The notes beneath the pieces were generated by a model. The model made no database searches. It had not been told where the DNA came from and was given only the letters and a program-made list of their open reading frames with translations. From positions 124,001-188,000 of the forward strand of contig JANXCQ010000004.1 in assembly GCA_025060195.1 (NCBI GenBank): a stretch of DNA of 64,000 bases, given 5' to 3'. The number at the start of each line of letters is the position of its first letter. Positions within the stretch are counted from its first letter, which is position 1. Positions 6,533 through 9,631 of this stretch are shown here, piece after piece. This DNA is from Gemmatales bacterium (GTDB lineage Bacteria; Planctomycetota; Planctomycetia; Gemmatales; HRBIN36). The position numbers and the translations under genes are program-made.

Positions 6533-7685
6533 TTACGGCGATGCCATCGCTGTGGCCGACACCTTCGCAGGTTTGCGTTGCTCTTCTTCGATTCTTTTCA
6601 GCAAATGGGCTTCCAAGAACTCATCCAAGTCGCCGTCTAACACGCGCTGCACTTGCGAGGTCTCCACTCCTGTGCGATGATCCTTCACCAGGGTGTAGGG
6701 ATGCAGCACGTAACTGCGGATTTGGTAGCCCCAGGACACATCGCCTTTCTCGTCATACTTCGTCTCGGCCTCGGCTCGACGTTTCTGCTCTTCCAGCCGT
6801 AGCAATTTAGCCCGCAACAGATTCCAGGCCATTTCCTCATTACGACGCTGACTGCGTTCGGAGCGGCACTCAGCGACGATGCCCGTCGGCTTGTGGATTA
6901 GGCGCACACCGCTCTGCGTTTTGTTCTGATGCTGACCACCTGGGCCACCCGCGCAAAACGTCTGCCGTTCGACATCCTCACGGCGAATCACCACCTCAGG
7001 CGTTTCGCCGATTTCGGGAATGACATCTACTGCGGCAAACGAAGTATGGCGTTTGGCCTCTGCGTCGAATGGGCTGATTCGCACCAGCCGATGCACGCCC
7101 GTCTCGCCTTCTAATCTTCCATAGGCATAGTCGCCCTCTATTAGTAAGGTGGCGTTGCGTATCCCTCCTTCTTCATTGACCACCTCATCCACCAATTCGA
7201 CCTGGTAAGCGTGTTGCTCGGCCCATCGGCTATACATGCGGAGTAACATCTGAGCCCAATCGCACGCATCGGTGCCGCCGGCACCGGCTTGTACACGGAC
7301 GTAGGCACTACAAGCATCATGCTTACCTTTGAGCATGGCGCGAAGTCGAAACTCGCGCATCTGCCGGCTGATGCGATGGAGCTCCCGTTGCAATTCACTC
7401 TCGAGCGACGCATCTTCCTCGGACAACTCCGCCAGCGCCTGTAAATCGGCTATGGCCCGTTCCAATTCCTGGTAAGGTTTGAGCAAGGCATTCAACAGCT
7501 TGAGTGCGGAGATAACTTGTTGGGCTTTATCGGGATTATCCCAAAAACCAGGCGCCTGCATTTGCGCTTCTAGGCGTGTGCGTTCGGCGAGACGGTGCGG
7601 GATGTCAAAGGCTGTCCCGCAACTTAGTCAGTTCGCTCGCTAATGCCTCAACCCGACGCTGCAATTCTGGATTCAACACTTTCAT
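6533..7685 (-). CDS. prfB: peptide chain release factor 2, expressed by programmed +1 frameshift
   Basis: RF2 terminates translation at UGA and UAA. The short first frame starts MKVLNPELQRR after a GGAGGG site and encodes 26 residues up to CTT TGA C. Slipping by one base continues as LDIPHRLAERT and on to the stop, for about 383 residues. The recognition tripeptide SPF (RISPFDAEAKRHTSF) and the catalytic loop GGPGGQHQNKTQSG are both present, so this is RF2 and not RF1. The frameshift is the known autoregulatory device of this family: low RF2 lets ribosomes pause at UGA and shift. It lies downstream of selD in the same direction. Confidence 0.93.
7604..7610 (-). promoter_or_regulatory. programmed +1 frameshift site CTTTGAC of prfB
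   Basis: The heptamer CTTTGAC is identical to the classic prfB recoding site. The upstream GCGGGA could act as a weak internal Shine-Dalgarno-like stimulator. Frame continuity on both sides (KLRDSL before, DIPHRLAERT after) shows that the shift is required to make full-length RF2. Confidence 0.9.
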
Positions 7686-7977
7686 GTCCCTCCGATTTTT
7701 TGGGTGCAGTAGCATACGGTATTTTATGCACGATGTCAATGTACGCTGCGATTCATCTGACTCCTTGGCATAAATTGGGAATCGTGTGTGATGTATGCTA
7801 CAGAGGTGCCCGTCGCCTTTAGGTCCATAAGGACACGGAACCCGCCGGAATCGTTTTCTATAGAATGTGGCGTTGCCTTTGCGGCGCTTGAGAGGTGTGA
7901 TTTGAGTCGTATTCCTGCCCCTCGAGCGTTTTGTTACCGGGCTCAAGAGGTCAAGGCTAAGCGAAGAAGTTGGCGGC

Positions 7978-9048
7978 CTAGGAGGAAGCGGGACTGGCGG
8001 TCACTATTAGCCGGCAGTTATCTTGAGCCGGTAAGACTTCGCCGATTACCGCTGCCAAGCAACCGCTCTGCTGGAGGCGTTCGACTAACTCGCTCAGACG
8101 CGTCGGGGCTACGGCAATGAGCAAGCCCCCAGAGGTCTGGGCATCGAAAAAAATTTCCAATCGGATCGGGTCGAGTTTGCCTTCGAGCCGTAGTCCAGGT
8201 TCGACGAAGCTACGGTTGGTTTTGCTGGCCCGCGTGAAAAACCGTCGCACGACTAGTTCTTCTACCCCTGGCAACAAGGGCAAACGATCTAGATAGATGC
8301 GGAAGGTGCATTGTCCCGCTTGAGCCATTTCGTAAGCGTGGCCTGCCAGACCGAAACCTGTAATGTCGGTCATGGCATGGGCAGCCACCGCTTTTGCTGC
8401 TTGAGCAGCCTCACGATTCAGTTGAACCATGCTCTGTACCGCGGCCTGGAAGGTGGCTTCGGGACACTTGCCGGCCTTGTGTGCGGTGGTGACGAAACCC
8501 GTGCCCAGTGGTTTGGTGAGCACCAATTGGTCGCCTGGACGTACACCTGAGTTAGTGATTACCTCGGCGGGATGTACGACGCCGAGCACGCACAGTCCGT
8601 ACTTGATTTCCTGATCGCGGACCGTGTGGCCGCCAATGATCACGCACCCTGCTTCCTGACACCGTTCCGCACCGCCTTGCAGGATTTCCTCCAGGATGGA
8701 CAATGGTAATTGGTCATCGGGAAAGCCCACCAGGTTTAGCGCGGTTTTTGGGGTTCCGCCCATGGCGTAAACGTCACTCAGGGCGTTAGCGGCGGCAATT
8801 TGGCCGTATACGAACGGGTCGTCCACCACCGGTGGAAAAAAATCGAGCGTTTGGACAACGGCCAGTTCATCGGTAAGACGATAAACTCCCGCGTCGTCGG
8901 CCGTTGCCGTTCCCACGAGGATGTTTGGGTCCGTCATACTTGGCAGATCACGCAGCACCTGCGCGAGGCCCGTGGCGGGCAGTTTCCCCGCTCACCCAGC
9001 GCAGCTGGCGTAATCAGTCAGCCGTTTCTTCCGGCCAAAGCTCCACAT
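7978..9048 (-). CDS. selD: selenide, water dikinase, itself a selenoprotein (UGA = Sec at residue 19)
   Basis: SelD makes selenophosphate from selenide and ATP, the selenium donor for selenocysteine synthesis. A reading frame that stops at UGA begins only at RDLPSMTDPNILVG, but the same frame extends upstream through one TGA as TDYASCAGUAGKLPATG. This is the normal SelD N-terminus, with Sec in the catalytic Cys/Sec position ahead of the conserved Lys. Translation then begins at ATG (MWSFGRKKR) with AGAGGAA seven bases before. Total length is 356 residues, typical of the family. The glycine-rich ATP-binding core (DDAGVYRL, GGHTVRD) and C-terminal FDAQTSGGLL are intact. It sits between a SelW-like gene and prfB. 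Confidence 0.9.
8992..8994 (-). other. in-frame UGA read as selenocysteine in selD
   Basis: The codon falls at the active-site Cys/Sec of SelD in the context CAG-Sec-AGK. Upstream residues remain SelD-like to the ATG. Just downstream, GCCC and GGGC (8968-8980) can form a short stem with loop GCCAC starting 15 bases after the UGA. This is at the edge of what bacterial SECIS elements usually show, so the hairpin is only suggestive. Confidence 0.82.
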
Positions 9049-9350: not shown

Positions 9351-9590
9351 TTATAGCCCCGCCCTTTTCTTGAGCTGTTCCACGACCCAGGCTTCGTCAG
9401 GGAACTGACCTGTTTTGAGTTTCGAGTAGAATAGCTCGCCATTGACGGTGATCTCAAAGCATCCACCTGTTCCTGGCACGAGGGTGAATTCCTGCAGTTT
9501 GTTCTTGAGAGCGGTGAGTATCTGGCCCGTCAAACTGACGGCCCGAGGCTCGTAGTTTCACACATAGCAGTATTCCAGGCGTATTTTCAT
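9351..9590 (-). CDS. SelW/Rdx-family selenoprotein with Cys-Tyr-Val-Sec redox motif
   Basis: The Rdx (SelW/SelT-like) family consists of small thioredoxin-fold redox proteins. The frame is MKIRLEYCYV, then TGA, then NYEPRAVSLTG, continuing to a TAA for 79 residues. The family hallmark CxxU/CxxC sits after the first strand at residues 8-11, and NYEPRAVSL, GTGGCFEITVNGELFYSK and the C-terminal helix match the family. The start ATG has GGGAG ahead of it. A strong hairpin follows the UGA. A stop-aware gene finder would miss the whole N-terminus. It is probably co-transcribed with selD, about 300 bases downstream. Confidence 0.88.
9524..9544 (-). promoter_or_regulatory. candidate bacterial SECIS hairpin of the SelW-like gene
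   Basis: CCGUCA and UGACGG form a perfect 6-bp stem closing a GUU loop; one G-G mismatch and two more G-C pairs extend it. The loop begins 22 bases after the UGA and starts with G. Both features agree with what is known of bacterial SECIS elements, which bind SelB inside the coding region. The element lies within codons 16-23. Confidence 0.7.
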
Positions 9591-9631
9591 CGCGGACTCC
9601 CTCACTATTCAGCCTAGGCATAGCCCTTGTA

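Follow-up and report, generated by a model that had tools for sequence, protein, structure and literature searches.

A SelW-like selenoprotein gene with a covarying SECIS hairpin beside a selenocysteine-containing selD in a Gemmatales bacterium

Bacterial SELENOW-like selenoproteins (PF10262/TIGR02174) are known from the Sargasso Sea and GOS surveys (PMC1088965, PMC2398784). A 2026 review lists the family only with a CxxU motif, i.e. with one selenocysteine (Sec), and gives UxxU only for other families (PMC13188914). The window analysed here (the whole stretch of 64,000 nucleotides from a Gemmatales bacterium) contains a SelW-like (Rdx) CxxU selenoprotein gene, selW, which is a new member of this well-known family. 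It resembles the described members in size, in the Rdx fold, in having an in-frame UGA with a bacterial SECIS element, and in carrying its CxxU motif where the first strand ends.

Translation of the minus strand of the locus (Table 1) yields a protein of 79 residues in which residue 11 is encoded by the only in-frame TGA (MKIRLEYCYVUNYEPRAVSLTGQILTALKNKLQEFTLVPGTGGCFEITVNGELFYSKLKTGQFPDEAWVVEQLKKRAGL, followed by the stop), and the Cys-Tyr-Val-Sec motif lies at residues 8–11, as the initial annotation, which named no strand, had read it; no recognisable reading was found on translating the plus strand of the same interval. The product matches the Pfam Rdx family PF10262 (2.6e-20, 72.8 bits against a cut-off of 22.6) and TIGR02174 (SelT/SelW/SelH; 1.9e-18, 66.5 bits against a cut-off of 34.2), and scores 73.9 against the narrower equivalog NF041051, whose cut-off of 88 it does not reach. 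An AlphaFold model built on a 35-sequence alignment has a pLDDT of 95, with a strand at residues 2–8 and then a helix at residues 14–31; the fold is thioredoxin-like and its first strand is followed by the CYVU motif. This model superimposes on the SelW-related crystal structures 2fa8, 3dex, 2obk and 2p0g with an rmsd of 1.1–1.4 Å; the match to 2fa8 has an E-value of 3e-8, while mouse SelW (2npb) is less close (5.8e-4).

Table 1. Positions of the features described (window coordinates, or coordinates within the named locus)
Feature	Position	Strand	Evidence
selW, Rdx/SelW-like selenoprotein, CYVU at residues 8–11	9351..9590	-	translation, Pfam PF10262, TIGR02174, AlphaFold match
selW in-frame TGA read as Sec, residue 11	9558..9560	-	same-site TGA in orthologues
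selW SECIS hairpin core, 6-bp stem, GUU loop (loop 9533-9535)	9527..9541	-	covariation, conservation
GGGAG, likely ribosome-binding site, 6 nt 5' of selW ATG	9597..9601	-	read from sequence
selD, selenide water dikinase, selenoprotein (ASCAGUAGK)	7978..9048	-	TIGR00476 4.5e-116
selD in-frame TGA (Sec)	8992..8994	-	translation
selD SECIS hairpin CGCGCAG-GUG-CUGCGUG, loop 33 nt past UGA	8949..8965	-	pair covariation
Double-TGA SelW, UAMU	L039:1498-1740	+	two in-frame TGA codons
Double-TGA SelW, UAMU	L049:1486-1728	-	two in-frame TGA codons
Double-TGA SelW, USMU	L061:1293-1529	-	two in-frame TGA codons

The SelW protein could be identified in 80 of the 102 genomes of the order Gemmatales, nearly always with exactly one internal TGA. 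Relatives from Planctomycetota, Verrucomicrobiota, Chloroflexota and Poribacteria also carry a TGA at the same codon, and the in-frame UGA aligns with Sec or Cys of homologues. SelW of the sister species is 85% identical across the full 79 residues, the similarity starting sharply at the ATG and ending at the stop, with flanks that barely align; no close homologue was found that starts downstream of the UGA. Differences from the sister gene are distributed over the three codon positions as 1/1/3 upstream of the UGA and 11/2/33 downstream, and thus indicate purifying (coding) selection on both sides of it; 29 codons differ synonymously and 12 nonsynonymously.

Ordinary ORF calling, as had been predicted, yields only a 60-residue stub without the redox motif (9351-9533, with a TTG start at 9533), and this stub would be the working protein if the TGA were an ordinary stop. 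We consider that highly improbable: the stub also lacks the first strand, conservation of the residues upstream of the TGA extends to the sister species and to all relatives, the TGA is invariant, and the hairpin that follows it covaries (see below). A sequencing error, or a recent mutation of a Cys codon in what would then be a CxxC protein, involves a single-base difference (TGC or TGT to TGA) in a draft assembly of 126 contigs; yet the same TGA recurs in dozens of independent assemblies, including that of Gemmata sp. IIL30, and no close CxxC orthologue was found in the SelW subfamily of the window, which leaves this explanation with a negligible probability. The comparative evidence for a Sec-encoding UGA and its hairpin is decisive, and the initial claim of a SelW/Rdx selenoprotein concealed by its UGA is borne out by the profile matches, the same-site TGA in relatives, the covarying hairpin and the Sec machinery of the genome.

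Two further kinds of SelW-like protein were encountered in the genomes compared. At the Cys-x-x-Sec site, one orthologue (L103 in genome G005, minus strand) has Cys-Ser-Val-Gly, a loss of Sec without reversion to Cys, and SelA is retained in its genome. Several genomes of the order also encode a second, divergent SelW-like paralogue with a CTSU motif (L111 to L120), accompanied by a hairpin of the same kind (CCAGUUUGG).

Within the motif, the residue following Cys is Ser, Ala or Thr in 90 of 94 distinct SelW loci, and the locus of the window and that of its sister are the only ones with Tyr at this position. The bulky Tyr-Val pair had been called uncommon; this holds for Tyr (two of the 94 loci) but not for Val, which is common at the second x position (15 of 94).

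The selW hairpin (CCGUCA-GUU-UGACGG) has a local minimum free energy of -17.4 kcal/mol. It had been described as a perfect 6-bp stem with a GUU loop starting 22 bases past the UGA, which is correct for the loop, whereas the stem starts at 16 nt. Its z-score against dinucleotide shuffles is -1.29, which is not significant by itself, and a strict hairpin rule is passed by 12 of the 1,794 TGA triplets in the window (about 0.7%), that of selW included. Among synonymous recodings of the gene 6.5% retain all six pairs, and none of 3,000 matches the native sequence in folding stability. Taken alone, the hairpin is therefore weak evidence.

An Rfam scan of the selW locus returned no relevant family, and the hairpin was therefore tested by covariation, using an ungapped alignment of 37 sequences and 500 shuffles. 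In this alignment 94.6% of the cells are paired and four of the six pairs contain double changes; none of the 500 shuffles equals the hairpin in either paired percentage or covariation score. Pairing collapses when the hairpin partner is slid by one to three columns, and RNAalifold unaided recovers the inner five pairs. The GU of the loop is invariant in 91 sequences, and pairing is weakest at the outermost C-G pair, which is broken in about one-fifth of the sequences. With 22 nt to the loop, the spacing agrees with the published bacterial SECIS model, as does the energy (PMC13188914). Across relatives, the case for a SECIS element at this site is convincing, and the phrase 'near-perfect SECIS' used in the initial annotation is fair, although the hairpin would be no proof by itself.

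The genome contains a tRNA-Sec with UCA anticodon, a SelB match of 393 bits (cut-off 242) and a SelA match of 481 bits, the SelA and SelB genes being adjacent on contig 60. With selD in the window, selA, selB, selC and selD are all present; the Sec machinery is not absent, and the organism is a Sec-decoding one. SelA is missing, together with SelW, from two genomes of the same family. Selenouridine synthase was sought in the genome and not found, in agreement with Gemmata obscuriglobus, which is reported to possess the Sec-insertion genes and to lack this enzyme (PMC4807772). The molybdopterin-oxidoreductase matches of the genome have no TGA within the matched stretch, and hence no Sec-containing formate dehydrogenase was seen. 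A SelB-like match with an internal TGA (L010) proved to be an ordinary EF-Tu, the TGA being its stop. Elsewhere in the genome (L149; G000 contig 22, 70000-71400, minus strand) a thioredoxin-like protein with a U-T-S-C motif is encoded, and a 7-bp hairpin with a GUA loop follows 30 nt after its TGA; judged by these features, the protein is likely to be another selenoprotein.

SelD, itself a selenoprotein, is encoded by the next gene downstream of selW on the same strand. A table-11 ORF listing starts selD 90 nt too late (GTG at 8958), and both gene models are corrected here, selW having been reduced to a stub and selD cut at its N-terminus. SelD next to selW contains Sec in 30 of 32 loci and Cys in the other two; the hairpin pairs covary among the 30 Sec-SelD genes, and both Cys-SelD copies (L072 and L091) lack the selD hairpin, which makes them a useful negative control. 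In these same two loci the upstream selW still has its UGA and hairpin, despite the Cys in SelD. About 300 nt separate selW from selD in the window; a simple scan of this spacer revealed no minus-strand terminator, and its small ORFs gave no family match in profile searches. Co-transcription of the two genes is plausible, and we do no more than infer a single transcript across a spacer of this length, which is not conserved with the sister species. In the same window, prfB (RF2; 6533-7700, minus strand) has its usual +1 programmed frameshift site CTTTGAC (slip site at about 7604-7611), and ORF listings split the gene in two.

A same-strand selD within 1.5 kb downstream of selW was observed in 32 of 94 loci, among them those of four of the five SelW-bearing genomes of the family to which the window belongs. 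This neighbourhood would suit a SelW dedicated to SelD, as a partner that handles reduced selenium or delivers it for selenophosphate synthesis, instead of a general redox protein. Such a role is unlikely, as selD was not found beside selW in the remaining 62 loci (some of them on short contigs) and a shared selenium dependence may by itself explain the proximity; it concerns function only and is compatible with the selenoprotein explanation.

The selenoprotein explanation, namely that selW and selD form a two-gene selenium cluster in this Gemmatales bacterium, with the UGA decoded as Sec via a SECIS element and SelB and with SelW acting as a CxxU redox protein, is in our judgement very nearly certain. 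The gene, its motif, the conserved UGA, the covarying hairpin, the complete machinery and the fold are established by computation. We propose that a ribosome translating selW would encounter the UGA at codon 11, and that the hairpin just downstream would bind SelB carrying Sec-tRNA-Sec, such that Sec would be inserted in place of termination. The product would be a small thioredoxin-like protein with a Cys-x-x-Sec active site; actual Sec insertion and thiol/selenol redox activity are presumed from these features. selD, decoded likewise, would make the selenophosphate needed to charge tRNA-Sec.

The SelW of the window is itself CxxU and not UxxU, and three of its relatives contain two in-frame TGA codons in the motif. 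One genus contains L039 and L049 and another L061, and the Rdx profile is still matched (2.5e-19 for L039 and 1.9e-19 for L061). The tree joins L039 and L049 as sisters to two CAMU proteins, and a CSMU protein is almost identical to L061; with the UxxU proteins thus nested among CxxU relatives, two gains of a second Sec are the simplest reading. The two UGAs are 9 nt apart, with 31 nt from the first and 22 nt from the second to the loop, and both distances fall inside the published range. SelA is present in all three genomes. On these grounds we lean, with some reserve, towards SelW having twice gained a second Sec within the order, giving a diselenide-capable Sec-x-x-Sec site whose two UGAs may be served by a single hairpin. 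Sequencing error is an unlikely source of the double TGA in the shared pair L039/L049, and a conceivable one in L061. No report of two Sec residues in this SelW site was found in the literature, and a search for the UxxU SelW pattern in 392 genomes of the phylum returned none. Four other matches with two TGAs from a phylum search (L121-L124) are CxxU proteins and were not counted as double-Sec, since the second TGA lies near the end and is probably the stop. If real, the double-Sec relatives would allow two questions to be put to a natural test: whether a pair of neighbouring UGAs can be decoded by one SECIS, and what role a diselenide has in SelW.

Within Gemmatales, SelW is a widespread selenoprotein, and conservation of its SECIS can be demonstrated. 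The CxxC Rdx proteins of known structure (2fa8, 3dex, 2obk and 2p0g) share its predicted fold (TM-score of about 0.87) at 26–35% sequence identity, and in the alignments with 2fa8 and 3dex, a comparison suggested by the initial annotation, Cys occupies the position of Sec. CxxC relatives in the genomes examined belong to a divergent type (mostly CRWLLRAAW) without the conserved RGUYUG hairpin core. Relative to the bacterial SELENOW-like family, the SelW of the window differs by the Tyr at the first x position and by the adjacent Sec-containing selD, and is otherwise not unusual. Compared with other Sec-containing SelD proteins, that of the window is typical, with Sec at the catalytic position, and differs only in its adjoining selW.
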